64,000 nt of DNA from Meghimatium bilineatum (lineage: Eukaryota; Mollusca; Gastropoda; Stylommatophora; Philomycidae). The position numbers were made by a program, and so were the translations under genes. The stretch is taken from contig CM067309.1 in assembly GCA_034231615.1 (NCBI GenBank), forward strand, positions 28,909,860-28,973,859, read 5' to 3'. Positions within the stretch are counted from its first letter, which is position 1, and each line of letters opens with the position of its first letter. The notes beneath the pieces are model-generated. The model made no database searches. It worked only from the letters and a program-made list of their open reading frames with translations, and was not told the DNA's origin. This document shows, piece after piece, positions 4,235 to 59,279 of this stretch.

Positions 4235-4455
4235 GATGTTTTTATTTCTAATTCCGTCGCGTAATGATGTTTTTATTTCTAATTCCGTCGCGTATTGATG
4301 TTTTTATTTCTAATTCCGTCGCGTATTGATGTTGTTATTTCTAATTCCGTCGCGTATTGATGTTTTTATTTCTAATTCCGTCGCGTATTGATGTTTTTAT
4401 TTCTAATTCCGTCGCGTATTGATGTTATTATTTCTAATTCCGTCGCGTATTGATG
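4235..4455. repeat. 31-bp tandem repeat, 7 copies
   Basis: The unit is GATGTTTTTATTTCTAATTC plus CGTCGCGTATT. Copies start at 4266, 4297 and 4328 and continue, with single-base variants such as GTTGTTATT and GTTATTATT. Confidence 0.95.
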
Positions 4456-6999: not shown

Positions 7000-7112
7000 A
7001 CACGTCAGTAGTTTTTTATTGCTTTCTGAGCTGCCTTGATGCACAATTGCTTGCGACGGAATTCGAGCCCGGTACCTTAGCCGTAAGAGACACGCTCTGT
7101 CAGACAATAATG
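7000..7112 (-). mobile_element. tRNA-derived SINE, partial copy
   Basis: On the minus strand the order is a degraded A-box region, then a B-box match (CGGGCTCGAATTCCG), then TTGTGCATC and AGCAATAAAAAACTACTGA. The order and spacing match the SINE copies at 23150-23362, 29455-29635 and 39650-39850. It abuts the LINE-A copy that begins near 7140. Confidence 0.7.
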
Positions 7113-7139
7113 TCAGACAATTTAAAAGACAATAGAGTC

Positions 7140-9660
7140 TTTTAAACAAGTTGCCGAAGTAGCAAAGAAGATGTGTTGGAATAAATTCACCGAGGAGGTC
7201 ACGGCGGACAAAGCATTACACAAGTTTTGGAAACTACATAGGTCAATGAAGCGAAGAACAGAATCGAAACCCAGTACAAGTGTGAGGGACGACACAGGGC
7301 AGACATTGATATCGGATGATATGAAAGGTAGAGCTTTCTTTGATAGATATCTTCAACAAACTAATCATGGTGACTTAGATCAGCGCAAAGAAATGCTGCA
7401 TATCCTGACATCCATCACGGATTTTAGGGCCAAAGAAGACCAGCTTGCAGATGTTAAAGAAGTGCAACTGGCTATTAAGAATGCATCCGATGGCGCTCCA
7501 GGTCCGGTACAGCTTACTCAAGGACATTGAGGAGAATATGCTAGCTAAAATAACAGACGATTATAATACGAGTCTGAAAACAGGAGTAGTACCAGAGGAG
7601 TGGCTACATAGCTATCTTATACCCGTGCCAAAACCAGGCAAAGATTCTACGGACATAAAAGGTTATCGCATCATCACACTGCAGAATGTATACGGTAAGA
7701 TTCTGGAACGAATTGTGGCTAGACGCATAACCAGGGAACTAGAGATAAAAGGCGTTCTCCTAAATAACCTACGTGCATACAGACCTAGACGAGACACAGT
7801 CACAAATGCAGCAGTTCTTGCATATGAAGTTTATGAAGGTTTTCAGAACAAAGAAGAATCTGCAGCTGCAGTGATAGACATGGAAGATACATACAATAGA
7901 GTTAGCTACACCCATCTCATCGACATGCTAAGGGAACAAGATATCCACCCCTGGATCATACGCTGGATAGCAAATGTGCTAATCTGTAGAAAAGTCGCTC
8001 TGATGTGTGGATCCTGGACGTCTGAGATCAGAACAATAGCACCTGGTCTGCCACAAGGATCTCCTCTGTCCCCAGTACTGTTTAATGTGCATACGTTGAG
8101 AATTGCTCAATTGCAAACCTCCAGCAATGGTACAGTTCTAACATACGCTGGCGATATCCTACTATACAACATGGGCAGGAACAGAACATATATCGCTGAT
8201 AGTGTACAGAATGTTCTAGATCAATTGTCGATACGGTGCAGAACATACAACGCTGTGATCAATCCCTCGAAAGCAAAGGTCGTCTGGTACTCCTTAAATA
8301 ATAATCTGGTCAATGACACACTGCCAGCTGTTAGTTGCATGGGCTCATTCATTGAAAGAGAACAGGACCTTAAATATCTTGGGATAATCTTTGATAGAAG
8401 TCTCTCATTCAACAAGCACGTCACAAATATGATTCAGAAGGCTAGAAGAGGGATCAGTGTTATCAAGGCTATGGCGACCTTCGACATGCAGCAATGGGTA
8501 CTTTTTATGCTCCTGCAAGTAGTGGTGCTATCTGTAATAGATTATGGTCTCGGCCCACTAACTTTGTCACAGACACAAGTCGATAGATTGGAAAAAGTTC
8601 AAAATGAGGCAATGAGAGCGGTACTGGGGTGTACTAGAGATACACCCATCTCTGCTATGGGATTTTTGCTTGATCTCCCCAGCATTAGAGTGCGACATCA
8701 GGTAGTACAAGTTAAGTCGTACCTTAAAGTGACAGAATACAACCACCACACATTACACCATCGTCTAGATGAGTCAAAGGGAAAACGAATCAAGCGTGGC
8801 AGATCATGGATGACAGAGGCTGAAGACACACTGCGAATAGTATGTGAATTGGAAGAAATAGGAAAGGGCAGTGAATGGGTGGAGGTAGACACTGAGAAGA
8901 AATCACTGACTAAAGTAATAATACAACTAGATACATCGTGTCGAAAATGGACGGCAGTCAGGGTTCAGGATACAGTGCAAGAACTCGCCCAACTACACTC
9001 GAAACCACAAGACATAATTATATACACAGATGGCTCTATTAGTAGAAACACAAATAAAAGCGGTTGGGGTTTTGTTGCCTACAGAAATGGCGTGAAGTTG
9101 GTTGAGAAATCTTCAGCATATTCTACTGTCACATCGAGCATGAGGATGGAGATAGAGGGAGTTACAGCATCTCTTAATTGGATGATAACTGATACATCAA
9201 CACGCGGTAATACTCACAGACTCTCAAAGCATGTTGCGCAAGATAGAAAAGTTCATGCTAAGAAAAGAATGGTGGGACTTATTGAACATCTCAGTTGTCC
9301 AGAGCATTACATGGATATACTGCCCTGGTCATGCTGGGGTCAGAGGAAACGAGAGAGCCGACTTACTGGCAGGCTATTTGGCGATAGACAGCACATTTCT
9401 GAGAAGAGATAAAGCAGATTTAATAAAGGCAGTAATAAATTCATTTCAAGATGCAGATGATGTCAATGAGGTTGAGAACGTACACATACAGAGAATGTTC
9501 GAAATGGGAGTATTCAGAGGTGAGGGGAGGAAAAGTACATTTTTGGAAAGTCCCGAAGATCACACAATCAACACCTGACCGGAACTATGAGTCTACATAC
9601 ACTGGGATGGCTGCTGGAGCGGAGGGCGGATCACTTATGGGAATGTCCCGCGTGCTGTGA
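7140..9660 (+). pseudogene. LINE-A retrotransposon, RT and RNase H
   Basis: Longest LINE-A copy: the linker before RT, the RT domain, then an RNase HI domain. Reading begins FKQVAEVAKKMCWNKF at 7140. A frameshift with lost codons lies at about 7505, after DGAPGP. RT landmarks in the 655-residue frame are PVPKPGKDST, GYRIITLQNVYGKILE, VIDMEDTYNRV (motif A), GLPQGSPLSP (motif B) and YAGD at 8144-8155 (motif C). Motif C is normally YADD, so a catalytic Asp is replaced by Gly. RNase H keeps IYTDGS, the Glu of RMEIEG, ILTDSQS and GNERADLLAG, but a one-base shift near 9208 separates them. The end shows LWECPACC, a Cys motif shared by the family. The endonuclease is missing. Resembles I/R1-group elements; the clade is inference. 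Confidence 0.9.
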
Positions 9661-9719
9661 AGCCAGTTTCTAATCAAGAATCAAGACACGCTCTTTAACT
9701 CGCTGTCACAAACGCTTTC

Positions 9720-10005
9720 TGTACCACGGTGTCACAAGACTCTTTCTGTACCAGGCCGTCACAGAGGCTTTCTGTACCAGGCCGTCACAGACGCTTTCTG
9801 TACCAGGCCGTCACAGAGGCTTTCTGTACCAGGCCGTCACAGACGCTTTCTGTACCAGGCCGTCACAGAGGCTTTCTGTACCAGGCCGTCACAGACGCTT
9901 TCTGTACCAGGCCGTCACAGACGCTTTCTGTACCAGGCCGTCACAGACGCTTTTTGTGCCAGGTCGTCACAGACGCTTTCTGTACCAGGCCGTCACAGAG
10001 CCGAA
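9720..10005. repeat. 26-bp minisatellite derived from the SINE head
   Basis: About 10-11 units of GCCGTCACAGACGCTTTCTG plus TACCAG. The last unit runs into CACAGAGCCGAACATTTCTG, which matches the outer end of the local SINE (39830-39855: CACCGAGCCGGACAAATCTG). The unit also matches the SINE A-box region (GTCACAGACGCACTCTGTAC at 39810). The array therefore looks like an amplification of tRNA-like head sequence. Its open frames are spurious. Confidence 0.85.
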
Positions 10006-10054
10006 CATTTCTGTACTACAGCATTGTCATGATTTACAGTTGTTGCTCATATAT

Positions 10055-11330
10055 ACTGTATGTTTGATCATTTCTACTGTAAGCTTGATCATTTCTACTG
10101 TATGTTTGATCATTTCTACTGTATGTTTGATCATTTCTACTGTATGTTTGATCATTTCTACTGTATGTTTGATCATCTCTACTGTAAGCTTGATCATTTC
10201 TACTGTATGTTTGATCATTTCTACTGTATGTTTGATCATTTCTACTGTATGTTTGATCATTTCTACTGTATGTTTGATCATTTCTACTGTAAGCTTGATC
10301 ATTTCTACTGTATGTTTGATCATTTCTACTGTTTGTTTGATCATTTCTGCTGTATGTTTGATCATTTCTGCTGTATGTTTGATCATTTCTGCTGTAAGTT
10401 TGATCATTTCTACTGTATGTTTCATCATTTCTACTGTATGCTTGATCATTTCTACTGTATGTTTGATCATTTCTACTGTATGTTTGATCATTTCTACTGT
10501 AAGCTTGATCATTTCTACTGTATGTTTGATCATTTCTACTGTATGTTTGATCATTTCTACTGTAAGCTTGATCATTTCTACTGTATGTTTGATCATTTCT
10601 ACTGTATGTTTGATCATTTCTACTGTATGTTTGATCATTTCTACTGTATGTTTGATCATTTCTACTGTAAGCTTGATCATTTCTACTGTATGTTTGATCA
10701 TTTCTACTGTTTGATCATTTCTGCTGTATGTTTGATCATTTTTGCTGTATGTTTGATCATTTCTGCTGTAAGTTTGATCATTTCTACTGTATGTTTCATC
10801 ATTTCTACTGTATGCTTGATCATTTCTACTGTATGTTTGATCATTTCTACTGTATGTTTGATCATTTCTACTGTATGTTTGATCATGTCTACTGTATGTT
10901 TGATCATTTCTACTGTATGTTTGATAATTTCTACTGTATGTTTGATAATTTCTGCTTTATGTTTGATCATTTCTACTGTATGTTTGATCATTTCTACTGT
11001 ATGTTTGATCATTTCTACTGTATGTTTGATCATTTCTACTGTATGTTTGATCATTTCTACTGTATTTTTGATCATTTCTACTGTATGCTTGATCATTTCT
11101 ATTGTATGTTTGATCATTTCTACTGTATGTTTGATCATTTCTACTGTATGTTTGATCATTTCTACTGTATGTTTGATCATTTCTGCTGTTTGTTTGATAA
11201 TTTCTACTTTATTTTTTGATTTTTCTACTGTATGTTTGATCATTTCTACTGTATGTTTGATCATTTCTACTGTATGTTTGATCATTTCTACTGTATGTTT
11301 GATCATTTCTACTGTTTGTTTGATCCGGAA
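10055..11330. repeat. 21-bp satellite, about 60 copies
   Basis: The unit is GATCATTTCTACTGTATGTT plus T, with AAGCTT and TTTCTGCTG variants. Period 21 is seen between 10087 and 10108. Being a multiple of three without stops, it opens long frames on both strands (FDHFYCM and MIKHTVE repeats). A four-base loss near 10706 shifts the frame. The variant block at 10330-10445 recurs at 10705-10820, an offset of 374 bp. A satellite, not a protein gene. Confidence 0.95.
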
Positions 11331-23149: not shown

Positions 23150-23503
<354 letters not shown>

Positions 23504-29310: not shown

Positions 29311-29454
29311 GGACTTGTGCCAGTTTACTAAAATAACAATTCAAGTATGAAAATGTTTCATGTTTGTGTGAGCTTGTAATGACTGCTGGAATAGAAGTGG
29401 ATGTGCTTGTATTCGTACCAGTTTATACAAATTAAAATGTAGCTTCAATATTTA

Positions 29455-29635
29455 AGGACGTAGCCATCAACCCAGTATATTTAGTGATTTTCTAGGCATT
29501 GTAAATACTTTCAGTAGTTTGTCATTGCTTTCTAAACGAATGCACAATTGCCTGCGGCGGTATTCGAACCCGGTACATTGGTCGTCACATAGTCGCACTA
29601 TACCACACCGCCACAGAGCCGGACTCACCATATCA
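29455..29635 (-). mobile_element. tRNA-derived SINE, best-preserved head
   Basis: Minus strand: GTCCGGCTCTGTGGCGGTGT then GGTATAGTGCG (A-box region), CCGGGTTCGAATACCG (B box, near consensus GGTTCGANNCC), body GCAATTGTGCATTCG and TTTACAATGCCTAGAAAATC, ending GTTGATGGCTACGTCCT. The head folds as a tRNA-like 5' part, as in Pol III-transcribed SINEs. No anticodon arm is preserved well enough to name the parent tRNA. Confidence 0.85.
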
Positions 29636-34912: not shown

Positions 34913-35991
34913 ACTGTTCTGTTCGTCCTAGTTTAGTATTCCTTTCACATGGGTCTGAATGTATATTGACATGCCATGCCTTTCACTCCACGGGGTTTGT
35001 TCTGGTACAGACCTTAAGGGGCTGTCAACTTCAGGTAGGTCTGTAAGTTGTCTACGGAGTCGTTTAGCTTGATGGATAAAGCTGTTTCTTTTCAGTCGCC
35101 CCATTGCTAGATTTTGGAATCTTTCCTTCATTGGATGACTTGGCATACACTTAAATGTTTCTGCTTGAATTAGTATTTGTGCGTCTCTGCGTTCGCCAAG
35201 TGTTTGCATGCTACCCATTTTCTGCATCTCTGCTATGGGTGTTGATTTCATTGCTCCCAACATTATTCTAAGTGCCTGGTTTTGCAATTTATCTAGATCT
35301 TGTAAAGTGGTGTTTGATGCAGGACACCACGCAGCTGAACCATATTCCAGGTGTGGTCTTATGCCTTGCTGGTAAACTTTACTGAGTATATTTCCACTGG
35401 TTCCCCATATCGTTCAACTTAGTTTTCTCAGGATAGCTAACTTCCTCCTGGCTTTTGTTGTTGCTTTGTTTATGTGCTGCTTCCATGTCAGCTTATCATC
35501 AAAAGTAACTCCGAGGTATGTTGGTTGTTTGTCTTCTTTCAAGAGCTCTCCATCTATCTTGATATGACCAGCTTTTTGTTTTGGTGAGATGATAAAGAGT
35601 GTAGTGCTGCACTTATCTGTATTAATGCTGACACACCATCTATTTGCCCATAAGGTTAGTGCTTTAGTAAGGATAGCTCATTGTATTTGTTTAGTGGCCA
35701 CTGTTGCATGTTCTTCCGTGCACCAGATCACCAGGTCGCCAGCATACATTGCCACTTTGATCCCGTGTGGTAGTTCAGCAACTAGGTCATTGGTGTAAAC
35801 CAAGAAAAGTGTGGGTGACAGGACTCCTCCCTGGGGGACTCATGACGCAGTAGAACTTTCTTGCTCTTACGACCATCTAATTCTACACTGGCTCTTCTAT
35901 TATGCAGGTATACTTTTACCCATTTGTACATTCTTGAGCTAACCCTGCAATTTCGCAATTTCTTTAGGAGCCCTTCTTTGTTATGGTGATA

Positions 35992-36149
35992 CAGAGATGC
36001 AGAAAATGGGTAGCATGCAAACACTTGGCGAACGCAGAGACACACAAATACTAATTCAAGCAGAAACATTTAAGTGTATGCCAAGTCATCCAATGAAGGA
36101 AAGATTCCAAAATCTAGCAATGGGGCGACTGAAAAGAAACAGCTTTATC
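35992..36149 (+). repeat. 158-bp inverted copy of the LINE-G thumb region
   Basis: This segment is the reverse complement of 35075-35232 over 158 bp with no gaps and one visible substitution (near 36043). It therefore lies in opposite orientation to the element around it. Both code MQKMGSMQTLGERRD and MPSHPMKERFQNLAMGRL, here on the plus strand and there on the minus strand. It replaces the coding sequence of RT motif A between LRKAF (right side) and KEGLLKKL (left side). Confidence 0.95.
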
Positions 36150-39649: not shown

Positions 39650-39855
39650 GGTAGCGTATCCTAGTCAGGGCACAGCCATAAATTCAGTACTTCTTGGCTG
39701 TAATAATTCTCTAGGCAATATAAATATGTCTACTAGTTTGCCATTGCTTTCTGAACAGCCCGGATGCACAACTACCTGTGGCGGGAATCGTGCTCGGTAC
39801 CTTGACGGTCACAGACGCACTCTGTACCACTGCGTCACCGAGCCGGACAAATCTG
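39650..39855 (-). mobile_element. tRNA-derived SINE
   Basis: Minus strand: TTGTCCGGCTCGGTGACGCA then GTGGTACAGAGTGCGTCTGT (A-box region), GTACCGAGCACGATTCCC (B box altered from GTTCGA to GCACGA), CAGGTAGTTGTGCATCC, and GGCTGTGCCCTGACTAGGAT at the far end. This copy shows most clearly that the 26-bp array at 9720 derives from the same head. Confidence 0.85.
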
Positions 39856-47330: not shown

Positions 47331-47434
47331 TACTGCGTTACATATTTCACAGTTCAGTGTTGTTGATATTAATTTTCAAGTCAATTTTGGTCAAAACATA
47401 AACTTCATATTATTAAATATAACTGATCTTTATA

Positions 47435-47850
47435 TTAGAAGTTGACAGCTTCATCTGCTCTTTATATTAGAAGTTGACAGCTTCATCTGCTCTTTATATT
47501 AGAAGTTGACAGCTTCATCTGCTCTTTATATTAGAAGTTGACAGCTTCATCTGCTCTTTATATTAGAAGTTGACAGCTTCATCTGCTCTTTATATTAGAA
47601 GTTGACAGCTTCATCTGCTCTTTATATTAGAAGTTGACAGCTTCATCTGCTCTTTATATTAGAAGTTGACAGCTTCATCTGCTCTTTATATTAGAAGTTG
47701 ACAGCTTCATCTGCTCTTTATATTAGAAGTTGACAGCTTCATCTGCTCTTTATATTAGAAGTTGACAGCTTCATCTGCTCTTTATATTAGAAGTTGACAG
47801 CTTCATCTGCTCTTTATATTAGAAGTTGACAGCTTCATCTGCTCTTTAAA
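47435..47850. repeat. 32-bp tandem repeat, 13 copies, essentially identical
   Basis: The unit is AAGTTGACAGCTTCATCTGC plus TCTTTATATTAG. Copies every 32 bp from 47439 are identical by eye, suggesting recent expansion or active homogenisation. Confidence 0.97.
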
Positions 47851-54534: not shown

Positions 54535-54857
54535 TTGTGTAAGTTTATGTTGTGTAAGTTTATGTTGTGTAAGTTTATGTTGTGTAAGTTTATGTTGTGT
54601 AAGTTTATGTTGTGTAAGTTTATGTTGTGTAAGTTTATGTTGTGTAAGTTTATGTTGTGTAAGTTTATGTTGTGTAAGTTTATGTTGTGTAAGTTTATGT
54701 TGTGTAAGTTTATGTTGTGTAAGTTTATGTTGTGTAAGTTTATGTTGTGTAAGTTTATGTTGTGTAAGTTTATGTTGTGTAAGTTTATGTTGTGTAAGTT
54801 TATGTTGTGTAAGTTTATGTTGTGTAAGTTTATGTTGTGTAAGTTTATGTTGTGTAA
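54535..54857. repeat. 15-bp perfect tandem repeat, 21 copies
   Basis: The unit is AAGTTTATGTTGTGT with no visible variation. Being divisible by three, it keeps one frame open on each strand (CVSLC and HKLTQ repeats) plus a second forward frame (KFMLC). Not genes. Perfect identity points to recent expansion. Confidence 0.98.
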
Positions 54858-57565: not shown

Positions 57566-59279
57566 CAGCAGTTCACTGGTAATGTGTTCACACCACCAAG
57601 GCGAAGCAATAGGTCCATCTTGTTATAAGATGAAACTGACATACCCATCTGAAGATTTTGAGCATGTCTGAAACAAGAAAAGCCTGTTGGTCAAGAAGAT
57701 TTTAACAGCAGGAAAAAAGTATCCACAATGAATATGTTTACGCTATGGTGCCGTTTCTTACCCGTCGTGTTTATGTTGTGTTCTTGAAAGACTTTTCGGT
57801 CGAAACATCGATATATGTGTGTTATTATATGTTACCAGAGATTGTCAAAGCTTCATAACACCTTTCCAAGTTCCGTATGTTGGATAACAGTTTTGATGAA
57901 TTATTACCTATTACATAATGTAACATGAGAAACTGAGCATTAAATTCTACCAGGCATTGACCTCCGCTGCATCGTGCGCAAGTCTAGCTGTCTGTCGGTG
58001 TGTTTTGTTGAGAGCGCAGAAATGAAATCAAACATATGCAGATTTTATGGAGCGCTAAAGTCAACGGACGAGCTGTTCCTTGTTAACCTCATGAGATTTT
58101 CTCACTTTTCAATGTGTCTAGCAAACGGCTTGACTTTTGCTTTTTCTTCTGACATGCTGTCCAGCCGGGACGTTTTCCATAGCTTTCTTAAAATTCCCCT
58201 AAGACGGATTGACTTAATGTGGTTGTAGGATACAATGCCTGAAACTTGACAGTCTTAAATTAGAAAGCAATAGCAAGAAATCTCAAAGACATTTGTCATC
58301 ACCATCTGATCAGTTAAATTGAACAAATATGAATGAACTAGGAGTACGATGGTGTAGTGGTAGACCCCGGAGGAAATTGTGTTCTCTCTATCGTCTGCTT
58401 TCTCGTTCTCCAGTCGGAGTCAAACATGGATATGGATTTCTTCAGTTAACTGTGATATGGTTATGCAGACACTAGAGCACGCCGTAGAGCTTGTCCGTCA
58501 GATATCTTACAGATACCAAAGATTGTGGTGTTCTACAGTTGGCATATTCTATTCAAGATTGGTCGTTTGACATTCGGTTAGACGTGGAGAGTTTTCAGAA
58601 CTTTCGTAAGTATCAGATGATTGAAACAATGTGTCTGTATGTGGTGCACTGCCGCAACCTGAGCTGCCCAAAAAGGATTCAGCAATGACTTTCTTGCACA
58701 CTCGAAGACATCTGGAGATAAACATTGTGCACCATCCCAGCAGCCCAGGTATAGGTCTTCAGCATGATTCATCACACCGGAGATCATGGAATGGCGAGGG
58801 TGGAGGATAGCACGCCTTCACCCAACTTCTTTTGCGCATTTTACGACATTGACTGTAGGTATCAGTGTCAGCTCCCTTCGTGAACACACGTGATGCGATC
58901 GTTCTTGATGAGAAACTAGCATCATAGGAGCATCAACACGGGGCATTCCCATAAGTGCTCTGCTCTCCGATTCAACAGCCATTCCAGTGTATGTATATTC
59001 AAAGATCGAGTCAGGTGTTAATTTCGTGATCTTTGATTCTTGTCAAAAAGAATACACGAGACTGTGTAGATGGTAAGTGATAACCAGCTGTTTGCTTCTA
59101 TCTGTAGAAAATAAGCTCAATGTAGCTCTTCATTCACTTAAATCAGGGGACGTTGTTCTCGGTAGCTCTCAGCAATATAAGACAATTATTGTGTTGTGTT
59201 TTGTTACTGCGACACTCTCCTCTTTGTTGGATATCTTCTATTTGACATATCATATATCAAATATATCTTATATTTGACA
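57566..59279. other. no gene seen; A-box-like string at 58350
   Basis: Unique sequence with several frames of 60-85 residues lacking recognisable domains. GATGGTGTAGTGGTAGACCC (58347) resembles a tRNA A box but no B box follows. CTTTCTCGTTCTCCAG (58398-58413) looks like a splice acceptor, but the frame after it matches nothing known to me. Confidence 0.35.

Follow-up and report, generated by a model that had tools for sequence, protein, structure and literature searches.

A 26-bp minisatellite occupies positions 9687 to 9999 of the window (the whole 64,000-nucleotide stretch of Meghimatium bilineatum DNA analyzed here), in which unit-by-unit decoding recovered 12 units, the two leftmost being degenerate (Table 1). 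TRF delimited the array at 9705-9999 as 11.3 copies of the 26-bp unit GTCACAGACGCTTTCTGTACCAGGCC, with 92% matches and a score of 504. The rightmost unit runs on into GAGCCGAAC, which reads GTTCGGC on the sense strand and represents the 5' end of a SINE. The right end of the array matched positions 1 to 45 of the SINE consensus built in this study (82% identity, E value of 2.6e-7), and eight more array matches covered consensus positions 7/8 to 55 with identities of 79 to 82%. The original prediction, made from the letters of the window, had described a 26-bp array continuing into the outer end of a SINE; the continuation is real, although GAGCCGAAC is one base off the GAGCCGGA given there. 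It had also assigned the unit, together with the motif CAGGCC, to the A-box region of the SINE. The array unit does correspond to SINE consensus positions 8 to 33, but CAGGCC is only a normal SINE stretch carrying one substitution (sense GGCGTGG in several other arrays). A chimeric origin of the window unit from two SINE segments joined at GGTAC was likewise considered and rejected, as the step from the GGCGTGG of other arrays to GGCC takes a single substitution.

Table 1. Features of the minisatellite, its interrupted SINE, and ordinary SINE copies in the window
Feature	Position	Strand	Basis or remark
Remainder of the array's SINE (rest of head with B-box region, start of body)	7005..7100	-	Consensus 24-119, 79% identity
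Target-site duplication, left copy, 11 bp AGACACGCTCT	7088..7098	.	Sequence match
Non-LTR retroelement (RVT_1, RNase_H), apparently 5'-truncated	7099..9683	+	Between array and B box, in SINE head
Target-site duplication, right copy, 11 bp AGACACGCTCT	9684..9694	.	Overlaps last array unit
26-bp minisatellite, 12 units	9687..9999	- (SINE sense strand)	Unit TCTGTGACGGCCTGGTACAGAAAGCG; TRF and unit decoding
SINE 5' end	10000..10006	-	GTTCGGC versus consensus GTCCGGC
Ordinary single-head SINE copy	23167..23358	-	81% to consensus
Ordinary single-head SINE copy	29452..29624	-	80% to consensus
Ordinary single-head SINE copy	39650..39848	-	83% to consensus

To obtain the SINE consensus, the slug's own genome (1.6 Gb, 32 contigs) was searched with one copy, yielding 2,538 first-look candidates, 40 of which were scored and the 30 best fetched; the consensus thus represents the 30 best-scoring copies and not a random sample. 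It begins with GTCCGGCTCTGTGGCGAAGTGGTACAGAGCGCGTCTGTGACGGCCAAGGTACCGAGTTCGATCCCCGCCACAGG, and each of the 30 aligned copies has a single head with one 26-bp unit. Comparison by eye with what we take to be the consensuses of the internal boxes revealed an A-box-like TGGCGAAGTGG and a B-box-like AGTTCGATCCC in the 5' head. ARAGORN scans of the window and of 10 loci found no tRNA gene; diverged SINE heads are usually not scored as tRNA genes. Attempts to name the SINE family from the literature gave no result, and no family sequence was obtained. The window harbors three good SINE copies, all with the head to the right, together with fragments, and genome-wide a 35-base pattern of the single head was found at 4,252 sites (2,083 + 2,169), with none for the control.

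The array is separated from the remainder of its SINE, and the SINE match on the far side stops at consensus position 119. Between the two parts lies a non-LTR retroelement, in which a domain scan leaving out the first 310 bases (7099-7408) detected RVT_1 (E value of 1.2e-25) and RNase_H in two frames (E values of 4e-8 and 8.3e-7). The size of this element suggests that it is 5'-truncated; its 5' base is uncertain by 1 to 2 nt, and its 3' end was set by the target-site duplication and by one partial copy at 58902-59049, a second copy of the 3' part on the minus strand with 76% identity. The duplicated AGACACGCTCT corresponds to SINE positions 26 to 36, and both copies share one change from the consensus. 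When the flanks are joined without the insertion, the resulting empty site reads through the SINE 5' end, the 12 units, and the body back in order. Considering that the duplication flanks the element and that the joined flanks restore the SINE order, the body was not lost: the non-LTR element inserted into the head of this SINE, cutting the array off from the body. A deletion of the SINE body beside the array was rejected, since the body was found beyond the inserted element. The consensus match and this displaced body bear out the earlier proposal of a SINE copy seeded at this site, with part of its tRNA-like head amplified.

A genome search with the window array returned 49 matches, and 39 stretches around them were fetched. 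Among these stretches and the window, 23 arrays with at least 3 units were decoded, the longest reaching about 40 units; no array was decoded at L017, L029, L035, and L047, the first of which nonetheless has repeated SINE-head matches. Of the 21 arrays outside the window, 18 have a SINE body within 300 nt downstream, the exceptions being L009 (no SINE-body match), L020 (body sequence farther downstream), and L027 (matching SINE positions 10 to 61), and the SINE 5' heptamer (≤2 mismatches) stands directly before the first decoded unit in 13 of 22 arrays, as judged by eye. Moreover, a 35-base pattern of two units (≤3 mismatches) occurred at 218 sites (117 + 101), compared with 0 for the reversed-pattern control, indicating that its occurrence is not due to chance; a second two-unit pattern, overlapping the first, gave 176 sites (101 + 75; control, 0). 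All 18 further loci fetched with the two-unit patterns contained at least 2 units, and 15 of them showed a SINE-body match; none was seen at L080, L090, and L093, with the L080 stretch ending inside the array. Overall, at least 48 loci with two or more tandem units were present on 22 contigs (the union of loci among the matches listed), or at least 46 when each duplicated pair is counted once. These counts are lower bounds, the loci having been assigned to groups and types by hand; C14:1262 and C8:5605 are counted from their search matches, and C8:40820545 and C10:33785454, found by the second two-unit pattern, look like ordinary heads and were left out. No correlation was found between array size and SINE-body identity (rho of -0.16, n = 27). 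Several blocks of diverged units were observed in the head arrays of L020, L026, and L027, which suggests that these are old arrays.

So many expanded heads could in principle descend from one SINE subfamily whose multi-unit head arose once and spread by retroposition. An expanded SINE would be transcribable in principle, with the A box kept at 7 of 8 positions in 6 of 22 arrays and the B-box region downstream in many. Nevertheless, the arrays argue against such a common descent, which we regard as improbable: the 22 arrays (duplicate L024 dropped) have 21 distinct majority units, 15 of them carry at least one majority-unit substitution private to that array, and identity within arrays exceeds that between arrays in 23 of 23. 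Both flanks are shared only by L023/L024 and L033/L034, which are duplications, and the other flank similarities among array loci span 48 to 272 bases on one side only. It is even less probable, and hardly credible, that the unit is an independent 26-bp satellite that resembles the SINE by chance or was captured by it, as might be supposed from the few loci with little or no SINE body (L009, L027, and L090), given that most decoded arrays precede a SINE body and are in phase with it, and that the 30 aligned ordinary SINEs have one unit each. The unit is accordingly found mostly inside SINE heads and not as a free satellite, in line with the original prediction.

Expansion in place within individual SINE copies is further illustrated by intermediate loci, which the original prediction had named as a check on its account and which do exist: two-unit heads occur at L046, L033/L034, L037, L039, and L085. 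For instance, the first of the two units at L046 has TCTGTGG and the second TCTGTGA; since the first repeat in the SINE reads TCTGTGGCG and the second TCTGTGACG, this pair is the product expected of one slip. The reciprocal product, in which the SINE 5' end is joined straight to the second repeat, was matched at 76 sites (37 + 39; control, 0), 58 of which have a SINE-like 5' end, while the other 18 look like ordinary heads or ties. Both loss sites that were fetched (L096 and L097) read as losses and differ in their upstream sequence. As a rough control, a search for loss at another internal repeat of the SINE (10 bp at a spacing of 78) retrieved 5 sites, each with 3 mismatches and resembling ordinary body, the wider spacing making this an imperfect control. 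Thus, 58 sites look like reciprocal 26-bp losses, which also weighs against a subfamily of single origin, since contracted heads without an A box would hardly be retroposable. Set against 4,252 single heads, the 46 gains counted as independent and the 58 apparent losses suggest that on the order of 1% of readable copies gained units and that a similar share lost one, the patterns not being strictly comparable.

A near-direct repeat, TCTGTGRCG, encloses the segment involved; its copies, at SINE positions 8 to 16 and 34 to 42, are identical at 8 of 9 bases and lie 26 bp apart. With a length of 9, this repeat alone is not exceptional: the longest near-repeat of the SINE is another pair, of 10 bases at a spacing of 78, and 39 of 300 mononucleotide shuffles reach that length. 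The single differing base, base 7 of the unit, left a footprint. In the 30 single-head SINEs, the first copies of the repeat mostly have G (23 copies, with A in another 6 and T in the last), whereas the second copies have A in all 28 that were readable (2 unread). Among 33 expanded loci from two patterns without a preference for A over G, base 7 of the unit was A in 25, G in 7, and another base in 1 (tallied by hand; A versus G, Fisher P of 7e-6); the footprint is quoted from these pattern searches, as the loci found with the window array are biased towards A at this position. Later units therefore mostly carry the base of the second repeat, as exchange within the repeat predicts. SINE subfamilies could be partly behind this footprint, and the predominance of A is also what a single expanded subfamily could account for.

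As single-stranded DNA, SINE positions 5 to 33 (29 nt) are predicted to form a hairpin with a stem of positions 6 to 13 paired with 23 to 30 (-8.2 kcal/mol; z of -4.06; matched by 0 of 200 shuffles). When the complete 74-nt head is folded, the best structure differs and does not contain that hairpin (z of -1.33; matched by 17 of 200 shuffles), and a single window unit folds weakly (z of -0.67), with three units reaching a z of -2.78. Slippage is classically favored where a hairpin lies between closely spaced direct repeats.

Taken as a whole, we consider it very probable that the window array is a minisatellite that grew where it now lies, within the tRNA-like head of a single SINE copy, and that the same 26-bp accident befell dozens of other copies independently. 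Slippage or unequal exchange involving the short repeats, recurring separately in each of these copies, is the likeliest process. Mispairing of the two TCTGTGRCG repeats would gain or lose 26 bp, perhaps aided by the hairpin (positions 6 to 30) that the direct repeat overlaps, and once two units were present, more slippage or unequal exchange would produce a longer and homogenized array. In the window, insertion of the non-LTR element into the head separated the array from the SINE body and left the 11-bp target-site duplication; judged from the present arrangement, array growth may have come before or after this event. More tentatively, and with rather less than even confidence, the head may be an intrinsic instability module, in which the hairpin segment and the 26-bp-spaced repeat make every new insertion a potential minisatellite seed. 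If so, the SINE would, as a side effect of its promoter, have been scattering minisatellites throughout the genome.

The split of the SINE, the genome-wide recurrence of the arrays, and the direct repeat that would seed them lie beyond the original account, which had envisaged that the array could act as a decoy or a source of small RNAs. The half of a Pol III promoter that contains the A box is indeed the source of the unit, and this half alone was amplified. The majority unit of the window, however, matches the A-box consensus, which we take to be TRGYNNARNGG, at 5 of 8 informative positions, the lowest score of the 22 arrays (shared by five others, in some through undecided majority bases), and the B box lies about 2.6 kb off behind the inserted element. 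In the window, none of the Rfam families attained its gathering score, and no tRNA gene was found there. A role as a decoy for Pol III factors or as a small-RNA source thus found no support and, as far as the sequence can tell, is very unlikely; the window array itself most likely serves no function.

Minisatellites seeded by short direct repeats within SINEs are already known from Alu, and the present case is unusually recurrent. According to a review (PMC6947457, with reference to Haber and Louis 1998 and to Jurka and Gentles 2006; also PMC3389668), minisatellites can originate where short repeats of 5 to 10 bp undergo slippage or unequal crossing over, and Alu elements are prone to this. 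Flanking direct repeats were noted in only 300 of 7,276 human TE-derived tandem repeats (PMC3389668). As in the Alu minisatellites cited in PMC3389668 and PMC6947457, a SINE segment between short direct repeats has become a tandem array here, and features of the Haber-Louis model recur: the unit is homologous to a SINE segment, the array lies within a SINE copy, and repeats of 5 to 10 bp bracket the unit. The slug SINE differs in that one segment, the A-box half of a tRNA-type head, was hit repeatedly and in the same phase, and in that reciprocal losses could be counted too.

Other SINE-derived tandem repeats offer partial parallels. The satellites of squamates (PMC10702118) are likewise arrays built from parts of SINEs, bordered by SINE ends and mostly of independent origin, with units of 67 to about 150 nt that vary between taxa, compared with 26 bp here; the portion of that text available to us contained no mention of direct repeats, slippage, short repeats, or microhomology. 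EhSINE1 of Entamoeba, as described in part of PMC2996970, has internal repeats of nearly identical length (26 to 27 nt), for which unequal crossing over or slippage was proposed, and a 26-bp deletion common to a few of its copies, comparable to the losses in the slug. EhSINE1 has at most 4 repeats, and recent transposition seems to account for its two-repeat class; the slug arrays, in contrast, expanded in place and reach about 40 units. In the limpet Patella caerulea, part of a mollusc SINE (Nin-SINE) has likewise given rise to tandem DNA, PcH-sat; PMC11121367 characterizes it as a 179-bp centromeric satellite without A and B boxes that makes up about 10% of the genome, whereas the slug arrays are short, dispersed minisatellites. 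No paper on this SINE head was found among the open-access papers searched.

The first steps of a minisatellite are hard to observe. Here a single known ancestral sequence exists in thousands of copies, and dozens of these have given rise to arrays separately. Heads with one, two, and many units survive next to reciprocal losses, which makes the short-direct-repeat model testable by counting. What gives the system its value is how many independent births a single genome has preserved; it is a natural record of minisatellite birth and not a sign of a new function.

The window is rich in other repeats as well. It contains 41 distinct tandem arrays covering 19.7% of positions 1 to 64000, of which only the 26-bp array matches this SINE consensus. 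A 21-bp minisatellite of 61 copies (TTGATCATTTCTACTGTATGT; 10043-11325) starts 36 bases from the SINE 5' end and has no evident tie to the SINE. Two very homogeneous arrays, at 54535-54857 (15 bp × 21.5, 100%) and 47423-47848 (32 bp × 13.3, 99%), look recent. In addition, two inverted repeat arms of 158 nt (35075-35232 and 35992-36149), 99% complementary and 759 nt apart, are perhaps a recent foldback or inverted-repeat element.
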